Shown here one piece after another: positions 9,708 through 42,025 of a DNA stretch of 64,000 nucleotides. The notes beneath the pieces are model-generated. The model was not told the DNA's origin, ran no database searches, and saw nothing but the letters and a program-made list of their open reading frames with translations. This stretch comes from Oscillospiraceae bacterium. Its GTDB lineage: Bacteria > Bacillota > Clostridia > UMGS1810. Position numbers and translations under genes: made by a program. The DNA is taken from assembly GCA_015069095.1 (NCBI GenBank), contig SVJH01000001.1, positions 62,001 to 126,000 of the forward strand. The letters are read 5' to 3'. Within the stretch, counting starts at the first letter, position 1, and every line of letters begins with the position of its first letter.

Positions 9708-9738
9708 AGGTATCTTCGTAAAGAAGATACCTTTTTTA
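9706..9738. terminator. bidirectional terminator shared by sigma factor and recombinase
   Basis: Stem AAAGGTATCTTC (9706-9717) with GAAGATACCTTT (9723-9734), loop GTAAA, T run on the plus side and A run on the minus side. It serves both convergent genes. It belongs to a family of GGTATCT hairpins also seen at 55163 and 59811. Confidence 0.85.
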
Positions 9739-11268
9739 AATATACTTTTTCATTCTGTCGATTGCGCTCTTTTCAAGTCGTGATACTTGTGCCTGAGAAA
9801 TACCTGTTTCGTGTAACGAAACACACTGTGTACTTGTGCTTCCAAGCGAAAGGTAAATACATATTTTAGCGCTCGTGTTTGCTGTTTTTTCAATTTCACA
9901 TTTTTTAAGTTTAACGTATGAGGTGCTTTTAAAGTTGTTAAAGTCATCATTTAAAAAATCAGATTTTATAAATACATTTTCTTTTATGTTAGTGAGTTCT
10001 TTTTCTATTTTTTCTTTTCTTTCTTTAAATTCACTTTTTGATATAAGAGAGTCGAGTACAAGTTCAAAAAGTTTTTCTTTTTTAAAAATGAGGGTTTCTT
10101 TATTTTTTGAACTTTCATTTTTTCTATCTAAATAATCTGCAATTTTTAGTTTGTTTTGTTTTATTGTTTTATAAACATCATTTAAAATAAATTCAAGTTC
10201 ACTTTTGTAGATGCTTACATTTTCACATCCGTTTCTTGCTTCTTTACACTTTAATGCTTCGTTTTTTCCAAACATTACCCTGTGGTACGATGTTTTGTGC
10301 TCTTTGCAAACTACCTTTCCGCTGAAAAAATACCTGTTTTGGTATGAAGATTTATTATCTTTAAAGTTTTTGCCCCTTTCGTTTAAAATGTCATTTGCTC
10401 TGTTCCATGTGTTTTCGGGGATAATTAAAGGAATATTTTTATCTTTTTTAATTATCCATTCATCAGACGGTGTTTTAAGTTTTTTTCCGTATTTAAAATC
10501 TGTACTGTAATACTTGTTTGTGCAACTGAATCCCTTGTATTTTGGATTTGAAATAATGTTTCTGAGCGATGAATAAGTAAACGGTTTTTTATTTTTATTA
10601 ACGATATTTTCTTTAGAAAGTTTATTTGAGATGGCTCGTAATCCAAGACCTTTTATATAATAATCAAAAACTCTTTTTACAATTATTGCTTCTTCATATT
10701 TAATTGTTAAAATTCCGTTTTTCTTTTCGTATCCAAATGGGGCAGAACCAAGCATTTTTCCGTCTTTAACAGATTGTTTAAGACCAAATTTAACTCTTTC
10801 GGAAATTCTTCTTACTTCGTCCTGTGCGATAGCACTCATAATTGTAAGACGAAGTTCGCTGTCAGGCATAAGAGTATTTATGTTGTCGGACATAAAGTAT
10901 ACACCTACAGAGCATTTTAAAAGATTTTGTGTATATTTTATACTGTCTAATGTGTTTCTTGAAAATCTGCTTATTTCTTTTGTAAGAATAAGGTCAAATT
11001 TATTTTCTTTTGCGTCATCAATCATTTTTAAAAAATTCTGACGTTTTTTAACACTCGTTCCACTAACTGCTTCATCAACATATCTTCCTTTGTAAACCCA
11101 GTTTTTATTGCTTTTTATAAAGTCTTCAAAGTATTTAATCTGATTGTCAAGTGAAAGTGATTGCTCTTTTGTATCTGTTGAAACTCTTGCGTAAAACACA
11201 ACATTTAATTTTATGTCAAATATACTTTTGCCGCTTAAAAGTTCGTTTTTAACTTTGTATAAATCCAT
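9736..11268 (-). CDS. large serine recombinase with sigma-region-4-like C-terminal tail
   Basis: A 510-residue site-specific recombinase. The N-terminal resolvase domain shows YARVST (nucleophile near residue 30), SLDNQI and SRFSRNTLD; then come the Recombinase domain (~165-270, GSAPFGYEKK...ISNPKYKG), a zinc-ribbon-like region (VCKEHK...CKEARNGC) and a coiled-coil stretch. The last ~45 residues differ from usual large serine recombinases: the end (ETGISQAQVSRLEKSAIDR) closely resembles the region 4.2 helix-turn-helix of forespore sigma factors. No phage, conjugation or cargo genes flank it, so it is not an obvious intact element. It is divergent from the chromate-transporter genes. Composition is as AT-rich as the neighbours. 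Confidence 0.88.
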   Translation of the reverse strand: MDLYKVKNELLSGKSIFDIKLNVVFYARVSTDTKEQSLSLDNQIKYFEDFIKSNKNWVYKGRYVDEAVSGTSVKKRQNFLKMIDDAKENKFDLILTKEISRFSRNTLDSIKYTQNLLKCSVGVYFMSDNINTLMPDSELRLTIMSAIAQDEVRRISERVKFGLKQSVKDGKMLGSAPFGYEKKNGILTIKYEEAIIVKRVFDYYIKGLGLRAISNKLSKENIVNKNKKPFTYSSLRNIISNPKYKGFSCTNKYYSTDFKYGKKLKTPSDEWIIKKDKNIPLIIPENTWNRANDILNERGKNFKDNKSSYQNRYFFSGKVVCKEHKTSYHRVMFGKNEALKCKEARNGCENVSIYKSELEFILNDVYKTIKQNKLKIADYLDRKNESSKNKETLIFKKEKLFELVLDSLISKSEFKERKEKIEKELTNIKENVFIKSDFLNDDFNNFKSTSYVKLKKCEIEKTANTSAKICIYLSLGSTSTQCVSLHETGISQAQVSRLEKSAIDRMKKYI

Positions 11269-13165: not shown

Positions 13166-16100
13166 ATGAAAAAGAAAGTAAGTTTACTTTTGGTATTAAC
13201 AATGCTTTTTTCAATGTTTTCATTTTCTTATGTAGCCAATGCTGCAGATTTTGAATCAAACAACCAAAAAGCATATGTAGAAATACCACTAACAAATGTA
13301 TCTGATACAGATACAAAAGTTGAATTTGTGTTTAACGTAAATTCATCATCGGCACAGCAAATTGATTTATATGCTATGGATGATGCATTAACAAATGGTG
13401 TTACATGGACAAATGCACCTAATAACAAACAGTCTGAATCTGGTTTTAATGCCGATAAAGTTGGAAGTGTTGTTGTAAAAGATGCAAAAGAGTACGCTAT
13501 TGATGTAACAGATTATGTAAAAGCAAAAAAAGCATCAGGAAAAGAAAAACTCACATTCGGTCTTTCTGGTAATATAAGAAATGGGCTTACAACAGACTTT
13601 TCTACTTGGACTGGTGTTAATGTAATAACATCAAGTAAGAACTTTTCTTATGGCACAGAAGGAAATGCAATAAGAGGTGGACAGACCGGAACAACAAGTG
13701 CAACTATTGTAACAAACGAAGACCATACTGCGAATGATACAACATCAGGCTACGGAAAAAGTTTGCGCCTTATAAAATCTTCAACATCGTCTACATACAG
13801 ATATAAATTCTACAACGGGCTAAAAAGTGAAGGTCCGCTTGACGCAACCGATGTCGGAAGAAAATTTGAAGTAAGTTTCTGGGTTAAAAATAATTCTGAT
13901 ACAGCGCTTAATATGGCTGTTGGTTTTATGTCTGCGGCAGCAGGTGCGGGAACAGCAGAAAACCCAACAGGTAAAGCTACAAATTTTGTTGGAACAACAT
14001 GTTCAGTTACATCAACAAAAGCAGAAGGCTGGGTTAAACACAGTTTTACATATGAAGTAACACAGGATACTGTAGATTATCAGGCGGGTATGCTTACATT
14101 TGGTAACGCATTCTTGGATGTTTATATTGATGATGTATCTGTAAAAGATATTTCAACTCCTGTAACAAATATTACAGCATCAGATATAACATATGCTCCT
14201 GTATTTGAAAATCTTACAACTGAAGATTACTACAGACGTGCTGAATCGTCAATTACAACTAACAATATTTATCACACAAGCACACACGCTTACCGATGCG
14301 GTAATACAGGTGGTGCTGCAATTACAGTAACAGATGCTGCAAACTATCCTAATGGCACATCAGGAAAAGCACTTAGAGTTACTGGTAATACTGAAAGTTC
14401 AACAGGCGGCGGAAGACTTAAATTTTACAATGCTATTAAAAACAGTGCTTTAACAGAAGATGATATCGGAAGAAAATTCCTTATTGAAGCATATGTAAAA
14501 ATGCAATATGCAGACAGTGCCAATATTTCTCTTTGTATGATGAGTGAACAAGGTTGGTCTACATACGGTGCAACAACAACAGTTACAGCAAATAAAAATG
14601 ACTGGACAAAAATTTCTTTGGAATATACACTTGACGAAGGAAATATTACCGGTCAACACGGTATGCCTACATTTACAATACCTAATGTTTTAAACTATTA
14701 TTTCATTGATAATTTTACAGTAAAAGAAATTGTTGATGGTACTACATCAAAAGCACCAAGACTTAGAATTACAAAATCAGATGGAACAGTAAAATATGAT
14801 GTTTCTACTAATGTAGTTTGTATTGAAGATGGCGACAATGCTTATAATGTAATGAACAATTCAACTATTAACATTAACGACAAAGGTGTTGGACTTATTA
14901 AAAAAGAAGTACAGACACTTAAATCAAACTGGGTTGGCGAGTTTAGTGCAAATTCTGATTACGGATTTGAAAAAACTTTAAGAAACAACACAGATGAACC
15001 AGTAAATGCAATTCTTATTACCGCTTTATTCGATGAAAACGACAACATGATTACAGCAAATTCATGTGGAGATGAAATCGGTATAGGTGAAGTTTGTGAA
15101 CTTGCAACAAATATAAAACTACCAAATATTGATGTAACAACTGGCTATTACGCAAAAACACTGTTGTGGGATGGTGAAAATATGCTTCCAATGGGCGAAA
15201 CGAAGGAATATCCAGTATACTATAATCCTGAAGAAGTTGTTGTAAAAGTTTATGATGTTGCTTCTGGTGCTTCATATGCATCTTTTGACGTTTTTGTTAA
15301 AGGTACAAAGAAAACAAGCAATATGTACACAATGTATAAATTCCAGCATATTAACAATGAAAGAATTGAACAGGATTATACAAGTGGCGCAAATGTAAGA
15401 CAAGACGCAACACTTTACAGAGTAAAAACTGCATTTAAAGCAGCAAGAACAGATGAATTTACCTTTACAAGAGGAACTCAGGTTCTTCAGGAAGGTGAAA
15501 TTGAAATGGCTATAAGAGAAGCAAGCAGTGAATACACAAATAATAAGGCACCTGGAGATTTTATTGGTGGTTTCCATGGCGATGAACACCTAACAAGTGT
15601 AACACTTAAAATTGATGGCAAAGAAATTCCGCTTAATAAAGCAGGAAATTATGTTGGTAAGAAAATTGAATTTGACCAGTATTCAGTAGTAAACAGATGT
15701 AACACCCCTGAAGAAAAACTTATAAATCATACTAAAAAATATGTTGTAACTAAAAATGGTATTGATTTAAATCAGATCGCTGAGTGGATAGGGCCTGCAA
15801 AAATAAATGTTGCATACCTTACAATGTTTACAATTATGCGTCAGCCGGGTGCAAATGCAGACAGAGTTACAGATTATATGAAATTCTACTGGAGCGACGG
15901 TACAGAAGCAGCATATTATGATGTTTCTAACTACGGTTATAATACATATTTGGAAACAATAGAAGAAAAAGGTCAGGTAGCGGGCGAAAAGTTTGCAGAT
16001 TACTCATATGCACCGGGAGATATCGATGCGAAAGATGATGGAACTTATGTAAATAAAGTTCATTTATGGAGCAAGGCAGGCGATATAGACGCTTATGTAT

Positions 16101-16261
16101 GGACAGATACTGTAAGAGGACTTCGTAATGACTTTACAAACCTAACTGCGCGTATTTATGGAGATAACAAAATTTACTTTGGTTCTCACGAAAGTACATA
16201 TGTTGAAGTTGGCGATGTATGGGAAGTAAACAACCATTACGATATTAAAGTTAATAACTAA
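13166..16261 (+). CDS. large secreted protein with DNRLRE-like and two tandem CBM-like domains
   Basis: A 1031-residue exported protein. A Sec signal peptide ends at VANA-AD (about residue 26). Residues ~30-130 resemble a DNRLRE/CBM96 domain (AYVEIPLTN, DVTDYVKAK). Two related beta-sandwich modules follow, ~135-330 and ~345-535. They share the order GKSLRL/GKALRV, YKFYNGLK/LKFYNAIK, DVGRKFEVSFWVK/DIGRKFLIEAYVK and YIDDVSVKDI/FIDNFTVKEI, like carbohydrate-binding modules. The C-terminal half (~540-1031) is not recognised. I see no catalytic motif, no LPXTG and no S-layer domain. It could be a cell-surface glycan-binding protein or an enzyme of unknown family. An AAAGGAG site and a good promoter precede it, and a terminator follows immediately, so it is monocistronic. 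Confidence 0.75.
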   Translation: MKKKVSLLLVLTMLFSMFSFSYVANAADFESNNQKAYVEIPLTNVSDTDTKVEFVFNVNSSSAQQIDLYAMDDALTNGVTWTNAPNNKQSESGFNADKVGSVVVKDAKEYAIDVTDYVKAKKASGKEKLTFGLSGNIRNGLTTDFSTWTGVNVITSSKNFSYGTEGNAIRGGQTGTTSATIVTNEDHTANDTTSGYGKSLRLIKSSTSSTYRYKFYNGLKSEGPLDATDVGRKFEVSFWVKNNSDTALNMAVGFMSAAAGAGTAENPTGKATNFVGTTCSVTSTKAEGWVKHSFTYEVTQDTVDYQAGMLTFGNAFLDVYIDDVSVKDISTPVTNITASDITYAPVFENLTTEDYYRRAESSITTNNIYHTSTHAYRCGNTGGAAITVTDAANYPNGTSGKALRVTGNTESSTGGGRLKFYNAIKNSALTEDDIGRKFLIEAYVKMQYADSANISLCMMSEQGWSTYGATTTVTANKNDWTKISLEYTLDEGNITGQHGMPTFTIPNVLNYYFIDNFTVKEIVDGTTSKAPRLRITKSDGTVKYDVSTNVVCIEDGDNAYNVMNNSTININDKGVGLIKKEVQTLKSNWVGEFSANSDYGFEKTLRNNTDEPVNAILITALFDENDNMITANSCGDEIGIGEVCELATNIKLPNIDVTTGYYAKTLLWDGENMLPMGETKEYPVYYNPEEVVVKVYDVASGASYASFDVFVKGTKKTSNMYTMYKFQHINNERIEQDYTSGANVRQDATLYRVKTAFKAARTDEFTFTRGTQVLQEGEIEMAIREASSEYTNNKAPGDFIGGFHGDEHLTSVTLKIDGKEIPLNKAGNYVGKKIEFDQYSVVNRCNTPEEKLINHTKKYVVTKNGIDLNQIAEWIGPAKINVAYLTMFTIMRQPGANADRVTDYMKFYWSDGTEAAYYDVSNYGYNTYLETIEEKGQVAGEKFADYSYAPGDIDAKDDGTYVNKVHLWSKAGDIDAYVWTDTVRGLRNDFTNLTARIYGDNKIYFGSHESTYVEVGDVWEVNNHYDIKVNN

Positions 16262-17203: not shown

Positions 17204-18253
17204 CTAAACATCAAGTTTTAAATCGTTTTTACCAATCCAGCCTATTTTTCTTAGCGGTAAAGATATGATATAAGTTAAAATTGCAGGAAGAACAAAAGAA
17301 ATAAGTACAAGACCAATCCAGTCAAATGATGTAATAACTTTAGAAGCATCGTTTACCCATCCTGTGTAAACACCAATCTGACCTACAAGACCGCAAGTTC
17401 CCATTCCCGATGAAATTGCAGGACCATTCATTTCAAGACGGAATATGCAAGTAGCAATCGGACCTGTGATGGCAGAAGCGAGTATTGGCGGAATCCATAT
17501 TTTAGGATTTTTAACAATGTTGCCCATTTGTAGCATACTTGTTCCTATTCCCTGAGCAAATAGACCGCCCCATTTGTTTTCTCTAAAACTCATTACAGCA
17601 AATCCAACCATTTGTGCACAACATCCTGCAACTGCTGCACCGCCCGCAAGGCCTGTGAGCGATAACGCGGCACAAATTGCTGCAGAACTTATAGGTAATG
17701 TAAGTGCAATACCAACAAGTACAGAAACAACTATGCCCATTAAAAACGGCTGAAGATTTGTTGCCCACATAATTGCATTACCGAAAGACTGTGCAGCATT
17801 TCCAATGTATGGAGCAATAAGGATAGATAAAAGAGTTCCGATAAAAATAGTTACAAACGGTGTAACGATAATATCAACTTTTGTTTCTTTACTTACTGCT
17901 TTACCGCATTCAGCCGCAATTATTGCAATAAATAAAACTGCAAGCGGGCCGCCTGCACCACCTATTTCATTTGCTGCAAATCCAACAGTTGTCATTGAAA
18001 AAAGAACAAGTGGAGGCGCATTAAGTGCGTATGCAATAGCAATAGCCATCGCACTTCCGCTTACTTTTTTTGCAAAATCTCCGATTTTAACAAAAATGTC
18101 AATGTTAAGTTGTGTGCCAAGTGTACCGATAATCGTTCCGATAAGAAGTGATGCGAAAAGACCTTGTGCCATTGCGCCAAGTGCATCAATTCCGTATCTT
18201 TTGGCAGAAAATACAATGTCTTTTCTTTTTAAAAAGTTTTTAATCTTACCCAT
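17204..18253 (-). CDS. PTS EIIC-like membrane protein (PTS_EIIC_2 family)
   Basis: A 349-residue polytopic membrane protein of about nine or ten helices. It has Gly/Ala-rich motifs typical of the EIIC_2 family (GIDALGAMAQGLFASLLIGTI, TVGFAANEIGGAGGPLA, GMGTCGLVGQIG). These proteins resemble the sugar-translocating IIC subunit of the phosphotransferase system but normally stand alone. No EIIA, EIIB or HPr gene is nearby, so phosphorylation-coupled transport is unproven and the substrate unknown. ATG 18253 follows an AAAGGA site at a spacing of ten; the longer frame begins inside the divergent promoter region. Its stop codon overlaps the ribosome-binding site of the lipoprotein gene, so they are cotranscribed. 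Confidence 0.82.
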   Translation of the reverse strand: MGKIKNFLKRKDIVFSAKRYGIDALGAMAQGLFASLLIGTIIGTLGTQLNIDIFVKIGDFAKKVSGSAMAIAIAYALNAPPLVLFSMTTVGFAANEIGGAGGPLAVLFIAIIAAECGKAVSKETKVDIIVTPFVTIFIGTLLSILIAPYIGNAAQSFGNAIMWATNLQPFLMGIVVSVLVGIALTLPISSAAICAALSLTGLAGGAAVAGCCAQMVGFAVMSFRENKWGGLFAQGIGTSMLQMGNIVKNPKIWIPPILASAITGPIATCIFRLEMNGPAISSGMGTCGLVGQIGVYTGWVNDASKVITSFDWIGLVLISFVLPAILTYIISLPLRKIGWIGKNDLKLDV

Positions 18254-18333
18254 AAAAATGTCATCCTTTCTCCAAAAGTGTCGTTTTTTTAAAAAATTAT
18301 ATACCAATACATCTCATTTGTCAATGAAAGTAC

Positions 18334-18362
18334 TTTACTTTTTTGAAAAAATATGATATAAT
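18334..18362 (+). promoter_or_regulatory. promoter of the OLE RNA-oapA-dxs operon
   Basis: TTTACT (18334-18339), a 17-base spacer and TATAAT (18357-18362). The expected +1 at about 18369 coincides with the first base pair of the closing helix of the RNA. Confidence 0.7.
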
Positions 18363-18368
18363 CTACCG

Positions 18369-19016
18369 TGGTGGTGCAGTATCCTAGTCGGATCTGTCAG
18401 CTTGTAGGGTGGGCCTAAAAATCCACTAAAGGGCATATCGATGAAGTTCCTTGTGTTTGCTTCTTACGCCCAGTCTGGGGCAGATGCTGGGAGTTAAGGA
18501 TTAAGGGCGATCCGCAATGGCATGTGGGCGTTGACCCTTTTTCCGTGGAGACCTAAATACGTGACCTATAAAAAAGGGTTAATTCCATTTTAAGCTTATT
18601 GCTTTGGTCTTGATACCTTTTTTATTTCCGATTATTTAATAATCAATGTTACGGTTTAGGATAAAACCTGTTTTGCGGTGTAGGTAACAATATGCTGTGA
18701 ACAGTGTAGCCTGCCTTGAGTGAACTTGTGCGAATAACCGTCAGACCCTGACCCGATGGCCGTCGAGTCAAAGGTTATAGAGTTTGAAACCAAGTTTGCA
18801 AAAGAGGCTAAGAGTTGATACGACTGTCGAGGAAAACTCCTAGGCTGTGTTATACAAAGGATTGCAGTGCGGACTAAGTGGCAATTCAGCCATGTCTTTG
18901 GCGACAGGACATATAAGGTTTTAAAAGGAAACTGCCTTATTGGCGACGATTTGGTAGCCTTATGGGAAATCCAGCTGAACCTAAGCCGTAAATTTTACTT
19001 TGTATAATACCACCTT
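18369..19016 (+). ncRNA. ole: OLE RNA (ornate, large, extremophilic RNA)
   Basis: A ~645-base stretch with no supportable reading frame, clearly richer in G and C than the intergenic DNA around it and full of short complementary segments. Its ends pair: GGTGGTG (18370-18376) with TACCACC (19008-19014), and the promoter places +1 exactly there. The decisive evidence is context. Known OLE RNAs are ~600 nt, lie directly upstream of oapA, and sit in an isoprenoid operon with dxs and a TlyA-type methyltransferase; all three follow here in that order. OLE RNA forms a membrane-associated complex with OapA and OapB and is linked in Halalkalibacterium halodurans to tolerance of cold, short-chain alcohols and Mg2+. 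The exact 3' end and any processing site are inferred. Confidence 0.88.
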
Positions 19017-19068
19017 TATTTTTAAAATAATTCTTTTATATATAATCATTATTAGAGAGGACAGAAAA

Positions 19069-19635
19069 ATGAAAAAAGAAGGACGGTACTCGTGGACAAT
19101 AAAAATAACGATAATTTCGTTTTTTTTATCTATGACTATCAGTGTTATAACTAATGTAATGTTTGAAAATGTAGGACTTGCTATTGCATTTTTGATACTT
19201 GGGATAGTTGTTTTAATAGGTATTGTTTTTGATATTCTTGGTATGTCTGTTACATCGGTAACAGAAGCACCGTTTCATGCGATGAGTACACACGGCGTAA
19301 AAGGAAGTAAAGAGGCAATTTCACTTATACGAAATGCTGAAAAAGTTTCGAATTTCTGCAACGACGTTATAGGAGATATTGTAGGCATTATTTCAGGTGG
19401 TCTTGTTACAGCAATTGCGACACTTATTGCATCTTTGTATACTGATATGAAAATGATGATAGTAAATATCGTTCTTGCAGGTATAGTTGCCGCTGTTACA
19501 ATTGGCGGAAAAGCATTTGGAAAAACAATTGCGTTAAGCAAAGGAAAAGATATTATTTATTTTTCGGGAAGAGTTATTTACTTTTTTAAGAATATATTCA
19601 AAAGAAATAAAAAAAGCGAAAAGAGAAAATGCTGA
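19069..19635 (+). CDS. oapA: OLE-associated protein A (OapA), OLE RNA-binding membrane protein
   Basis: A 188-residue membrane protein with hydrophobic segments at about 12-32, 36-58, 98-122 and 128-150. A conserved-looking hydrophilic middle lies between them (APFHAMSTHGVKGSKEAISL, then NAEKVSNFCNDVIGDI), and the C-terminal tail is strongly basic (KNIFKRNKKSEKRK), suited to RNA contact. OapA is known to bind OLE RNA and carry it to the membrane. The identification rests on size, topology and position between the OLE RNA and dxs. ATG 19069 has GAGAGG eight bases upstream; the frame from 19000 would begin inside the RNA and lacks a ribosome-binding site. The 3' end overlaps dxs. Confidence 0.85.
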   Translation: MKKEGRYSWTIKITIISFFLSMTISVITNVMFENVGLAIAFLILGIVVLIGIVFDILGMSVTSVTEAPFHAMSTHGVKGSKEAISLIRNAEKVSNFCNDVIGDIVGIISGGLVTAIATLIASLYTDMKMMIVNIVLAGIVAAVTIGGKAFGKTIALSKGKDIIYFSGRVIYFFKNIFKRNKKSEKRKC

Positions 19636-21467
19636 TGATTTTAGAAAATATTAAAAGTCCGGCTGATTTAAAAAAACTTAATATAGATAAGTTAGGTGTT
19701 CTTTCTTGTGAAATCAGGCAAGAGCTTATTAAAAATGTTCTTAAAACTGGGGGACACCTTGCTTCAAACCTTGGTGCAGTAGAGCTTACCCTTGGCGTAC
19801 ATTATACTTTTAATACGCCTAAGGACAAGCTCATTTTTGATGTAGGACATCAGTGCTATGTACATAAAATGGTTACAGGAAGATATGAAAAGTTAGATAC
19901 TCTTCGCACATTTGGAGGATTATCTGGCTTTCCAAAACCAAACGAAAGCGAGTATGATACATCGATTTCAGGACACGCAGGAACAAGTATATCAACTGCG
20001 CTTGGTATTGCAAGAAGCAGAGATTTAAAAAATGAAGACTACGATGTAATTGCATTTTTAGGCGATGGCTCGCTTGGTAACGGTATGGTGTATGAGGCAA
20101 TGAATGACGTTGCACAAACCGGAACAAAAATAATCGTAATTTTAAATGACAATGAAATGTCGATAGAAAAAAATGTTGGCGGAATGAGTGAGTACTTAAG
20201 CAAATTGCGTACAACCAAAAGGTACATAAAAACAAAAGATAATCTTTCAAAATTTCTTGAAAAACTTGGCGGTTTTGGCCGCGGTACAAAAAAAGTTTTG
20301 CAAAAAATTAAAAATGCATTTAAGTATTCTGCAATATCAAATGTGTTTTTTGAAGAATTAGGCTTTACATATATAGGAATAATTGACGGACATAATTTTG
20401 AAAGTATAATAAACGCTTTAAACAGGGCAAAGGAAATAGAAGGTCCTGTGATTATTCATGCATTTACTAAAAAGGGTATGGGATATGAAAAGGCGGAAAA
20501 AGAGCCAAGTTTATTCCACGGAGTAAAAGGTGAAAAAAGCGTTAAGAAATTAAATTCTGATTATTCTTCAAAAGTAGGCGATGTGCTTTGCAAAATAGCC
20601 GAAAAGAATGATGATGTGGTAGCAATTACTGCAGCTATGACATCAGGATGCGGACTTAATGAATTTAGCGAAAAATATCCAAAAAGATTTTTTGATGTAG
20701 GAATAGCAGAAGAACACGCAGTTACAATGGCGGCAGGACTTGCAATAGGTAAAACTATTCCTGTAGTTTGCATTTATTCTACGTTTATGCAGCGTGCGTA
20801 CGACCAGATTATTCACGATGTGTGTATATCAAACCTTCATGTTGTATTTTGTATTGACAGAAGCGGTATAGTAGGGGACGACGGTGAAACACATCACGGA
20901 ATTTTTGATATATCGTATTTAAGTCATATTCCTAATATGACAGTTTTTTCTCCAACATGCGAAGATGAACTTGAAAAAATACTGGATTATGCTGTAAATA
21001 AAATGGACGGACCTGTTGCAATAAGATATCCAAGGGGCGAAATGCCTTTAGGAAGTAGAGTAGAAAACTTTGAAATAGGAAAGTCATGTGTTGTGAAAAA
21101 AGGAAATGATGTAACAATTGTTGCTGTTGGAAATATGTTAGAAACAGGAAATAAGGTTTTAGGCATATTAAAAGAAAACGGTATAGACGCAACACTTATA
21201 AACGCCCTTGTAGTTTCTCCTTGTGATATAAAAACTATCAGTGAAAATACCGAAAAATATTTGTTTACAATAGAGGACAATGTTTTAGCCGGTGGATATG
21301 GAGAAAAAGTAAAGGCGCAAATAGAAAAGAATGTTAGATTTAAAAATTACGGCTGGGACAGTAAATTTGTCGCTCACGGAAAAAGCGATCTTCTTTATGA
21401 AGATTCACATTTGGATGCAAAAAGCATAGCCGAAGATATTTTAAAGATTGTAAAAGGGGATAAATAA
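19629..21467 (+). CDS. dxs: 1-deoxy-D-xylulose-5-phosphate synthase
   Basis: First enzyme of the methylerythritol phosphate route to isoprenoids: joins pyruvate and glyceraldehyde-3-phosphate using thiamine diphosphate. The 612 residues show the expected order: GGHLASNLGAVELT, HQCYVHKM, the ThDP/Mg motif GDGSLGNGMVYEAMND with ILNDNEMSI, the second-domain RFFDVGIAEEHAVTMAAGLA (catalytic Glu) and a transketolase C-terminal domain. The start overlaps oapA by a few bases (ATG 19629, alternative ATG 19635), so translation is coupled to oapA. Part of the OLE operon. Confidence 0.96.
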   Translation: MLMILENIKSPADLKKLNIDKLGVLSCEIRQELIKNVLKTGGHLASNLGAVELTLGVHYTFNTPKDKLIFDVGHQCYVHKMVTGRYEKLDTLRTFGGLSGFPKPNESEYDTSISGHAGTSISTALGIARSRDLKNEDYDVIAFLGDGSLGNGMVYEAMNDVAQTGTKIIVILNDNEMSIEKNVGGMSEYLSKLRTTKRYIKTKDNLSKFLEKLGGFGRGTKKVLQKIKNAFKYSAISNVFFEELGFTYIGIIDGHNFESIINALNRAKEIEGPVIIHAFTKKGMGYEKAEKEPSLFHGVKGEKSVKKLNSDYSSKVGDVLCKIAEKNDDVVAITAAMTSGCGLNEFSEKYPKRFFDVGIAEEHAVTMAAGLAIGKTIPVVCIYSTFMQRAYDQIIHDVCISNLHVVFCIDRSGIVGDDGETHHGIFDISYLSHIPNMTVFSPTCEDELEKILDYAVNKMDGPVAIRYPRGEMPLGSRVENFEIGKSCVVKKGNDVTIVAVGNMLETGNKVLGILKENGIDATLINALVVSPCDIKTISENTEKYLFTIEDNVLAGGYGEKVKAQIEKNVRFKNYGWDSKFVAHGKSDLLYEDSHLDAKSIAEDILKIVKGDK

Positions 21468-21468
21468 A

Positions 21469-22266
21469 TTGAGTGAAAGACTTGATGTTGAACTTGTAAA
21501 CCGCGGGCTTGTTGAAAGCAGAGAACGTGCGAAATCATATATAATGGCGGGAATAGTTTATGTTGATAATCAAAAAACTTTAAAAGCCGGAGATAAGGTA
21601 AAAGACGGACAGAATATTGAAATAAGAGGTCAGAAACTTAAATATGTAAGCCGTGGTGGTCTTAAACTTGAAAAAGCGGTTGATGTTTTTGATATCAGTT
21701 TAGAAGGCAAAGTCTGTGTTGATGTAGGAGCATCTACAGGCGGATTTACAGACTGTATGCTTCAAAATGGCGCAAAAAAAGTTTATTCAATCGATGTCGG
21801 TTACGGTCAACTTGCCTGGAAACTAAGAAGCGATGAAAGAGTTGTAAATATCGAAAGAACAAATATAAGACATCTTGATTTGGAACTTTTAAAAGATGAA
21901 ATAGATTTTGCATCAATTGACGTATCATTTATTTCGTTAAAACTTGTTTTACCTGTTGTATATTCTTTTTTATCAGATAACGGAAATGTTGTTGCACTTA
22001 TTAAACCTCAGTTTGAAGCCCAAAGAGAAGATGTAGGAAAAAAAGGTGTAATAAAAGATAAAGAAGTACATAAAAGGGTTATAACAAATTCACTTGCAAT
22101 TGCAAAAGATTTAGGCTTTGGAATAAAGGGGCTTGATTTTTCTCCTATAAAAGGGCCTGAAGGAAATATCGAATTTTTAATGTATCTTTCAAAAAACAAA
22201 GAAGATGATATTTTAGAAAGTTTAATAGAAGAAACGGTGGACAGTGCACATGGCGAGGCAAAATAA
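21469..22266 (+). CDS. tlyA: TlyA-family S4/FtsJ RNA methyltransferase
   Basis: A 265-residue protein with an S4 RNA-binding domain (residues ~1-60, ERLDVELVNRGLVESRERAK) and an FtsJ-type Rossmann methyltransferase domain. The SAM motif is VDVGASTGGFTDC, followed by DVGYGQLAWKLR, the DVSFISL motif and KPQFEA. Relatives methylate ribosomal RNA (2'-O-methylation in TlyA). It starts with TTG one base after the dxs stop, with AAAGGGGA at a spacing of eight. This gene is a standard member of the OLE/dxs operon. Confidence 0.93.
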   Translation: MSERLDVELVNRGLVESRERAKSYIMAGIVYVDNQKTLKAGDKVKDGQNIEIRGQKLKYVSRGGLKLEKAVDVFDISLEGKVCVDVGASTGGFTDCMLQNGAKKVYSIDVGYGQLAWKLRSDERVVNIERTNIRHLDLELLKDEIDFASIDVSFISLKLVLPVVYSFLSDNGNVVALIKPQFEAQREDVGKKGVIKDKEVHKRVITNSLAIAKDLGFGIKGLDFSPIKGPEGNIEFLMYLSKNKEDDILESLIEETVDSAHGEAK

Positions 22267-23254
22267 TTTTCCAGAAGGAACAATTATATCTGGTGATTTG
22301 GCATTTGTTCCAAATCCAAAAGATGCTAAAAACGGGTTTGATGTAGTAAATATAAAAACCGGTAAAAGGTACGAAAAATTCAGTGATTGCATTTTTGATG
22401 GTCATGAAGATGCAAGTGATGATAAAAAAGAAATTGTAATTCAAAACGATAATGAGGAAAAAGAAGTAAGTATAATGGAAAATAATATTGAGTTTGATAT
22501 AAACTATGATGATTTAATTGATGACGGAAGCACAGTTGAAATATTTGAAGATACAAAGGCTGAAGTCAAAAAGAAGGAAGTAAACGAAAGTATACACAAA
22601 GGGCACAGAGAAAGAATGAAAAAACGTTTCAGAGAATACGGACTTTCAAACTTTGCTCCGCACGAAGTGCTGGAAATGCTTTTGTATTATACGCACGAAA
22701 GACGTGATACAAATCCTATTGCACATAATTTAATAAATGAATTTAACGATATTCAAAGTGTTTTTAAGGCGGATACGAATGCACTTTCAGAAGTTGACGG
22801 AATCGGTGAAGAAAGTGCACTCTTTATTAGTTTTATTCGCCAACTTTTAATTTATCTTAATCAGAATATAACTGATAAAGTAACACTTTCAACTTCAACC
22901 AGTGCAGGACAGTTTTGCTGTAAATATTTTGCTCAGCATACAGAAGAGCATTTTATTGTACTTGTGCTTGATACTACAAGAAGTGTTAAAAAGATTGTAG
23001 AGATAAGTCAGGGTACAGAAAACGAAACTGCATATTACCCGAGAAAAGTTGTAGAAGCGGCAATAAAGTACAAAGCGAATATGATTATGGTAGCACATAA
23101 TCATACAGGTAACAGTGTTCATCCGTCGCCTGAAGATACAGCTCTTTCAAATCAGTTAAACACAATACTTAATGCAATGGGAATTTCACTTGTTGACCAC
23201 ATAATATGCTGCGAAAATTCTTTTACAAGTTTTTCGGACAGAGGTATGCTTTGA
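22250..23254 (+). CDS. radC: RadC-family JAB/MPN domain protein with N-terminal extension
   Basis: A 334-residue protein. Residues ~115-190 are the RadC helix-hairpin-helix region (HRERMKKRFREYG, HEVLEMLLYYT, VDGIGEESALF). The C-terminal half is a JAB1/MPN metalloprotease-like fold with the zinc motif HNHTGNSVHPSPED. The biochemical role of RadC is unsettled despite the DNA-repair name. The first ~110 residues are an added acidic segment not usual for RadC, starting with a small domain (GTIISGDLAFVPNPKDAKNG). ATG 22250 is preferred (GGTGGA eight bases upstream) over GTG 22244. It overlaps the tlyA end, so it belongs to the OLE operon. Confidence 0.85.
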   Translation: MARQNNFPEGTIISGDLAFVPNPKDAKNGFDVVNIKTGKRYEKFSDCIFDGHEDASDDKKEIVIQNDNEEKEVSIMENNIEFDINYDDLIDDGSTVEIFEDTKAEVKKKEVNESIHKGHRERMKKRFREYGLSNFAPHEVLEMLLYYTHERRDTNPIAHNLINEFNDIQSVFKADTNALSEVDGIGEESALFISFIRQLLIYLNQNITDKVTLSTSTSAGQFCCKYFAQHTEEHFIVLVLDTTRSVKKIVEISQGTENETAYYPRKVVEAAIKYKANMIMVAHNHTGNSVHPSPEDTALSNQLNTILNAMGISLVDHIICCENSFTSFSDRGML

Positions 23255-23276: not shown

Positions 23277-25058
23277 ATGAAGGCAGTAAAAGTTGCAAAT
23301 AAAAATGGAAATCCTGTGCTTTTAGTCGGTGATGAAGAACTTTCTGCCTGTGCATATATTACCTATTTTGATGATAGAAATGATTATAAGGAGTTTTCAA
23401 AAAACGGATTTCGCCTTTATTCTGTGTCGGTATCTTTAGCCTCACAGCCAATAAATACACAAAGTGGATTTATGCCATTTGAAAAAGGCGTATTTGATGT
23501 AAAAGGAAAGCCTGATTTTTCCTGCGTAGATGCTTCTATTAAAAGAGTTGTAGATTCTGTACCCAATGCATATATTTTTCCAAGAATATATGTTTGCATG
23601 CCATCGTGGTGGATTAAAGAAAACCTAAATGAAACTATCGATGTCCCTCATGATAAAAAGAGAGAGATGCTCTTTTGCGAAAAATTCAGAGTAGATGCAC
23701 AAAATATGCTTAAACAACTTATAGAATATCTTGAAAACGGCGAGTATGCAGACTATATAATAGGCTACCAGATAAGCGGTGGAAATACTCAGGAATGGTT
23801 TCATCTTGACCTTAATGGTTCATACTGTGAAAACGCCTTGCCTTATTTTAATAAATATTTAAAAAACAAATATCCTGATATAAAAATGCTTGATAAACTT
23901 CCTGATATTGACAAAATAAAAAGTGCAGAATTTATAGATGATAGTATGCTTACAGAGTATCTTTTATTTGTAAACGAGGAAGTTGCAAAAACTGTTGATT
24001 GTCTTTGTAAAGCCACCAAAGAGGCGTGCAATTACAAAAAAATTACCGGCGCGTTTTACGGATATTCTTTAGAAGTTTGCAATCCGCTTTGGGGAACTCA
24101 TGCACTTGAAAAAATACTTGATAGCAAAAATATTGACTTTTTATCATCTCCGAATTCGTATACAAACGGACGTGCACTTGGCATAGACTGGGCGGATATG
24201 ATACCTGTTGACTCTGTAAAACTTCATGGAAAAATGTGTTTTATGGAATGTGATATAAGAACATTTCTTACAATGTCGCCTGAAGAAAGCAGACCGAACA
24301 GCGACCCTATGCACTATTATTCTCACAAGGTGTGGGAAGGTCCAAAAACAGAAGAACTTTCAGCATATGCCATAAGAAAAAGTCTTGCAAGGCAACTTAC
24401 CCATAAACACGGACTTTGGTGGTTTGATATGTTCGGGCATTGGTACAAAAGTCCAAAACTAATGAAAGAAATGGAAACATCATTAAAACTTTACGATGAC
24501 GTGCTAAAAAATAACGGATTAGAGTTTGAAACGGAAGTTGCTGTTTTTATAGACGAAAAATGTTTTTCAAAAATGGGAAATAAGCATCCTGCACATGATA
24601 GTGCATATCATTTAAAGGTATCTTTGGGTCAAAGCGGAGTGCCATATAAAGTCTATCTTATAAGCGATTTTGGTAAAATTGATTTAGAAAAATATAAAGT
24701 TGTAATTTTCAATATTCCTTTAGAAAGCGAATTTATAGATGAAAAAATTAAATTTCTTAACAAAAAAGGAATAGCAACTTTAAAAGTGGGTTATGAAAAA
24801 CCGACGTATTCATCAAAGGAACTTTATGAGTTCTTTGAAAAAAGCGGTGTACATTTATATTGCAATAGTTTAGATGTGTGTTATATAGGCAACGGCTTTG
24901 CTTCACTTCATGCATCTAAAGAAGGATTAAAAAAGATACGTTTTCCAATGACAGTAAAATGCACTGATATCGATACAGGAAAAAGTGTTGTTACAAATGT
25001 ATTGGAGTTTGATTGTAAAAAGTTTGAAACGAAACTTTTTATAATAAAAAATATATGA
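23277..25058 (+). CDS. GH-A clan glycoside hydrolase, GH42-like beta-galactosidase type
   Basis: A 593-residue, signal-less enzyme beginning with the NGNPVLLVGDEE strand typical of GH42-like barrels. Candidate catalytic glutamates are in YQISGGNTQEWFH (acid/base, end of strand 4) and GKMCFMECDIRT (nucleophile, strand 7). Residues ~420-500 look like a trimerisation/flavodoxin-like domain (EVAVFIDEKCF, YLISDFGKIDLEKYKVVIF) as in GH42. The exact family is uncertain; beta-galactosidase activity is the best guess. It follows radC by 22 bases with AGGAGG and no visible terminator, and is followed almost directly by the GH28 gene. A role on galactan side chains of pectin fits the partner. Confidence 0.72.
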   Translation: MKAVKVANKNGNPVLLVGDEELSACAYITYFDDRNDYKEFSKNGFRLYSVSVSLASQPINTQSGFMPFEKGVFDVKGKPDFSCVDASIKRVVDSVPNAYIFPRIYVCMPSWWIKENLNETIDVPHDKKREMLFCEKFRVDAQNMLKQLIEYLENGEYADYIIGYQISGGNTQEWFHLDLNGSYCENALPYFNKYLKNKYPDIKMLDKLPDIDKIKSAEFIDDSMLTEYLLFVNEEVAKTVDCLCKATKEACNYKKITGAFYGYSLEVCNPLWGTHALEKILDSKNIDFLSSPNSYTNGRALGIDWADMIPVDSVKLHGKMCFMECDIRTFLTMSPEESRPNSDPMHYYSHKVWEGPKTEELSAYAIRKSLARQLTHKHGLWWFDMFGHWYKSPKLMKEMETSLKLYDDVLKNNGLEFETEVAVFIDEKCFSKMGNKHPAHDSAYHLKVSLGQSGVPYKVYLISDFGKIDLEKYKVVIFNIPLESEFIDEKIKFLNKKGIATLKVGYEKPTYSSKELYEFFEKSGVHLYCNSLDVCYIGNGFASLHASKEGLKKIRFPMTVKCTDIDTGKSVVTNVLEFDCKKFETKLFIIKNI

Positions 25059-41746: not shown

Positions 41747-42025
41747 TTGGACGCTCATCCGGGAGAGTTTGTATATGCTACTGCTGGTAGAGATAAAGGG
41801 AAATGCTTTGTAATACTTTATGCCGAGAATGAATATTTATACTTGGCAGATGGAAGGGCACGCAAAGTGAGTACCCCTAAGAAAAAAAAGGTAAAGCACG
41901 TAGAGATGACAGGCGATAGAGATGAATTTATTATGGCAAAACTTATGCAAACAGGCAAAGTTACAAATAAAGAAATCAGATATTCGCTTTCAAATTACTT
42001 AGGCGATCAAAGTAATGATGATTAA
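41747..42025 (+). CDS. KOW-domain RNA-binding protein; candidate OLE-associated protein B (YbzG/OapB family)
   Basis: A 92-residue protein: HPGEFVYATAGRDKGKCFVIL is a KOW-type beta motif resembling L14e. A basic segment (KVSTPKKKKVKHVEM) and an acidic helical end follow. The slot between map and infA is that of ybzG in Bacillus. OapB, which binds OLE RNA in H. halodurans, is a KOW-domain protein of this family as I recall. Because this genome also carries OLE RNA and oapA, this gene is the natural OapB candidate; KOW genes also occur here in genomes without OLE, so the role is not proven. Start TTG 41747 with AGAGGTGA six bases upstream. Confidence 0.75.
   Translation: MDAHPGEFVYATAGRDKGKCFVILYAENEYLYLADGRARKVSTPKKKKVKHVEMTGDRDEFIMAKLMQTGKVTNKEIRYSLSNYLGDQSNDD

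Follow-up and report, generated by a model that had tools for sequence, protein, structure and literature searches.

The window analyzed here is the whole 64,000-nt stretch of DNA taken from an uncultured Oscillospiraceae genome, and its plus strand carries an OLE RNA gene followed by the gene for the OLE-associated membrane protein OapA. The Rfam OLE model RF01071 matched 18355–19029 (+) over its full length (model positions 1–616) with 488.9 bits and E = 2.1 × 10−140, against a gathering score of 50 bits. The same covariance search of the 46 contigs (2.06 Mb) of the genome gave a copy number of one, with no second OLE copy found. With the start set by the promoter and the end by the closing helix, the mature RNA probably spans 18369–19014 (+). 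Downstream lie oapA (19069–19635, +), encoding a protein of 188 aa, dxs (19629–21467, +; 1-deoxy-D-xylulose-5-phosphate synthase, TIGR00204, 702 bits), tlyA (21469–22266, +; TlyA-family rRNA methyltransferase, TIGR00478, 270 bits) and a gene for a RadC-family protein (22244–23254, +), the last belonging to the same gene run, which is conserved within this bacterial family. A preliminary description of this DNA had proposed an OLE RNA upstream of an OapA-like membrane protein, dxs and tlyA, and had named a covariance-model search as the check. That search returned OLE alone, at full length, and all three genes are present. The identity of 18355–19029 as OLE is secure, and the locus is a true further copy of a known RNA class: the identification was right and the find is an ordinary one.

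The gene-free, structured character given to this stretch in the preliminary description also held. Segment 18369–19029 had a minimum free energy of −205.8 kcal/mol (z = −3.6 against 20 shuffles), and in the k-turn/P5 region AUCGAUGAAGUUCC and CUGGGAGUUAAGG agreed at the sequence level with the RF01071 consensus. The only long plus-strand open reading frames (ORFs) touching the OLE stretch were those ending at 18356 or starting at 19000, the latter being oapA read from an upstream TTG. A protein-coding reading of 18369–19014 was rejected, as OLE was the sole match and the segment contains no long plus-strand ORF.

The two ends of the RNA pair with each other. The closing helix, formed by 18370–18376 (+) and 19008–19014 (+), consists of six Watson–Crick pairs and one G–U pair. 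Across 67 distinct OLE genes, a set that omits sequences with an odd 5′ motif, 93% of the cells at eight closing-helix positions were standard pairs and 96 double changes were counted. In 1,000 controls with swapped 3′ arms, pairing was 80% (maximum 83%) and double changes averaged 27 (maximum 50), and sliding the 3′ arm by 1–3 bases gave pairing of at most 74% and at most 18 double changes. The helix had been noticed in the preliminary description from its pairing, and strong covariation in relatives now substantiates it. The RF01071 structure line shows these bases as unpaired, and the covarying helix could be added there. It is probably P1 of the published OLE model, in which domain 2 includes a P1 (PMC12265935).

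A promoter scan placed the ole promoter at 18334–18362 (+), with a −35 element TTTACT, a 17-nt spacer and the extended −10 TGATATAAT, of which TG-A-TATAAT occupies 18354–18362, just upstream of the RNA. Taken alone, such a site is close to chance, as three promoter-like sites of this quality were found against 2.5 expected in this A/T-rich region. The extended −10 recurs at most OLE loci, with exact TGNTATAAT present in the 50 nt preceding the RNA at 41 of 73 loci compared to 5 of 711 control windows placed farther upstream, which makes it a promoter signal of the OLE class far above chance; shuffles predicted 0.5 occurrences. Transcription would plausibly start at 18369–18370, 7–8 nt past the −10, with the exact +1 not fixed by the sequence. 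Because the upstream neighbor, a PTS EIIC gene (17204–18307), is divergent from ole, the RNA most likely needs a promoter of its own, and the TATAAT promoter called in the preliminary description is borne out by the site itself together with its recurrence at most OLE loci. An own promoter has already been reported for the ole gene of Halalkalibacterium halodurans (PMC9723947). A perfect sigma-70 promoter (TTGACA-17-TATAAT, 12/12) at 18296–18324 (−) faces the divergent PTS EIIC gene, away from ole. A scan of the sequence between ole and oapA found no terminator.

The protein partners of OLE are encoded in the same genome. OapA is 39% identical to H. halodurans OapA and contains a CNDVIGD motif in which D99 and D103 are invariant across the eight OapAs compared. 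By alignment, these are the equivalents of H. halodurans D100 and D104, mutation of which causes severe phenotypes and breaks OLE function (PMC9723947). The only Pfam match of OapA was a sub-threshold one to CNNM (E = 8.6 × 10−4), in line with the weak OapA–CNNM homology noted previously (PMC11332333). The oapB gene (41747–42025, +; 92 aa) lies between map and an infA-like ORF in a ribosomal-protein cluster; it was located by its position after map and by its best solved-structure match, OLE-associated protein B (7k9b, E = 1.5 × 10−10), while a KOW-domain search for OapB matched only L24 and NusG-size ORFs. Contig C20 encodes a YbxF-type protein, of the OapC family, immediately upstream of rpsL. 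The genome, 97.9% complete, yielded no full CNNM protein of the MpfA type, none reaching E = 0.001. Spo0A is present, in line with the published link between OLE and sporulation genes.

OapA-like genes were also seen in other settings. oapA is said to occur only with ole (PMC9723947). In G020, a 100% complete genome of 0.9 Mb in which no OLE was found, an OapA-like protein (L111:2471–3070) that is 31% identical and keeps both motif aspartates is encoded after a prolyl-tRNA-synthetase-like gene and before an L20-leader-like element. G058, of the same genus, carries OLE as well as two OapA-like genes (second copy, L112/L130).

The RNA departs from the RF01071 consensus in an enlarged, A/U-rich P7-region arm (18555–18660, +), where a loop of ~8 nt in the consensus is replaced by 75 nt that fold into the A/U-rich arm plus an additional internal hairpin (z = −4.9). 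Sequence comparison suggests P7 extensions of similar size in four family relatives, whose total OLE matches span 670–683 nt, and in G002 the match is 845 nt with a P7 larger still. A small junction hairpin at model positions 424–435 was shortened in each of the six family members read. Both changes are family-level departures and define no new OLE type; as variation across J6/7–P8 has already been described (PMC12265935), the P7 variation is a lineage detail. In domain 2, hairpins that include two GGCGAC loops (18893–18952, +), conserved in the RF01071 alignment, would be the counterpart of H. halodurans P12.2/P13, the OapB-binding region, and form a putative OapB site.

Taken together, 18369–19014 is almost certainly a standard full-length OLE RNA gene with its own promoter, presumably giving a ~645-nt RNA processed from a transcript that extends through oapA–dxs–tlyA. 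In the proposed scheme, ole would be transcribed from its extended −10 promoter, transcription would probably read on through oapA–dxs–tlyA, there being no terminator ahead of oapA, and processing would then free the RNA. As in H. halodurans and the Clostridium structures, the RNA may dimerize, with OapA holding it at the membrane and OapB and OapC binding it, and the particle would act in the response to stress (Mg2+, alcohol, cold and carbon source). A role chiefly as a cis-regulatory leader of oapA–dxs, rather than as a free RNA, is very unlikely: the position immediately ahead of oapA, without an intervening terminator, would suit it, but OLE homologues are abundant membrane RNAs that undergo processing and act in trans (PMC9723947 and PMC12265935), and an architecture closed by a covarying 5′/3′ helix suits a discrete RNA. 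A degenerate, non-functional OLE relic, for which the altered P7 and a score of 489 bits below that of the best members (~560) might speak, deserves next to no weight, as scores in the phylum are commonly 400–560, nearly all conserved stretches are intact, the P7 change is common to the family and still folds well, and the promoter, OapA, OapB and OapC are all retained.

Within the bacterial family of this genome, the system is unevenly distributed. Among 16 family genomes, six have OLE and OapA, none of them with a CNNM protein, and ten have neither OLE nor OapA, a repeat search of these ten again finding no OLE; seven of the ten encode a full CNNM protein, and the three without OLE and without CNNM are 71–79% complete. 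Fisher tests of OLE against CNNM gave p = 0.011 within the family and p = 0.0009 over all 60 genomes (10/26 versus 28/34), neither corrected for relatedness. Within the family, ole–oapA and MpfA-like CNNM never co-occur, which fits the published OLE–MpfA anticorrelation and gives a compact, clean system for testing whether MpfA can take over from the OLE particle in handling Mg2+. In OLE-lacking G012, the one such relative with a fully readable gene run, xseB–ispA–dxs–tlyA are consecutive with no ole–oapA, and in OLE-lacking G013 ispA directly precedes dxs, the gene names in both coming from position and reading of translations rather than from a family search; in OLE-bearing G002, ole–oapA lies between xseA and dxs. 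It is conceivable, though rather doubtful, that the P7 arm of the family is an expanding platform (total match 675–845 nt) and may have acquired a partner specific to the lineage, and that the sister genera, with ole–oapA absent from the xseA–xseB–ispA–dxs–tlyA run and mostly an MpfA-like CNNM instead, constitute a natural within-family replacement experiment. In six further OLE-lacking relatives (G004, G006, G007, G009, G010 and G015; L123–L128), the dxs query returned split or partial transketolase-like matches only and no full-length dxs, reflecting either incomplete genomes or an altered isoprenoid route.

The window also encodes carbohydrate-active enzymes (GH127, GH28, GH2 and GH4), and the amino acid composition of 12,605 residues gave a rough growth temperature of ~27 °C. 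The formula used is a published regression, itself rough; a 16S rRNA, sought for the same estimate, was absent from the assembly. The uncultured host is plausibly a mesophilic degrader of plant fiber, much as the preliminary description had pictured it (a fiber-degrading, probably mesophilic anaerobe). Elsewhere in the window are two large proteins of 1,031 aa (13166–16261) and 593 aa (23277–25058, just before the GH28 gene), neither with a Pfam match, and a large serine recombinase with Resolvase and Recombinase domains (9736–11268, −), a possible trace of a mobile element. OLE has been published in 2,822 Bacillota species, uncultured gut symbionts and anaerobes among them (PMC11332333), and it was found in 148 of 199 genomes sampled throughout the phylum, so a mesophilic anaerobic host is expected and the suggestion that this locus newly widens the host range beyond extremophiles does not stand. 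Each of the 59 OapA-type loci taken as a sample of other genomes had OLE upstream of the OapA match; the hosts include Clostridium, Paenibacillus, Fictibacillus-type relatives and rumen or gut MAGs. The locus bears out that OLE extends beyond extremophiles and supplies a clear example from a probable mesophilic fiber degrader, both points being already in the literature.

Within the family, the OLE RNAs of G001/SIG435, G002, G003, G005/SIG448 and G008 share the long P7 and shortened junction with the window; the ole–oapA–dxs–tlyA order is shared with G001, G002 and G003 (those read), and RadC comes next in G001 and G003. G002 differs in its even larger P7 (845-nt match) and in keeping xseA upstream of ole. 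Compared to H. halodurans ole (L079), the full-length match, closing helix, own extended −10 promoter, directly downstream oapA and the presence of OapB and OapC are the same, whereas the P7-region arm here is ~75 nt longer and the hairpin at model positions 424–435 is shortened. In H. halodurans, ole is internal to a larger operon, while the ole of the window begins its gene run, as the upstream PTS gene is divergent, and the expression set-up is therefore not identical. OLE variants 1 and 2 (TANB77 and RF39 clades; PMC11332333) likewise occur in gut-type uncultured Bacillota hosts, but P7–P9 and the putative OapB site are retained in the RNA described here, as are OapB and OapC in its genome, which places the RNA with the full-length type.
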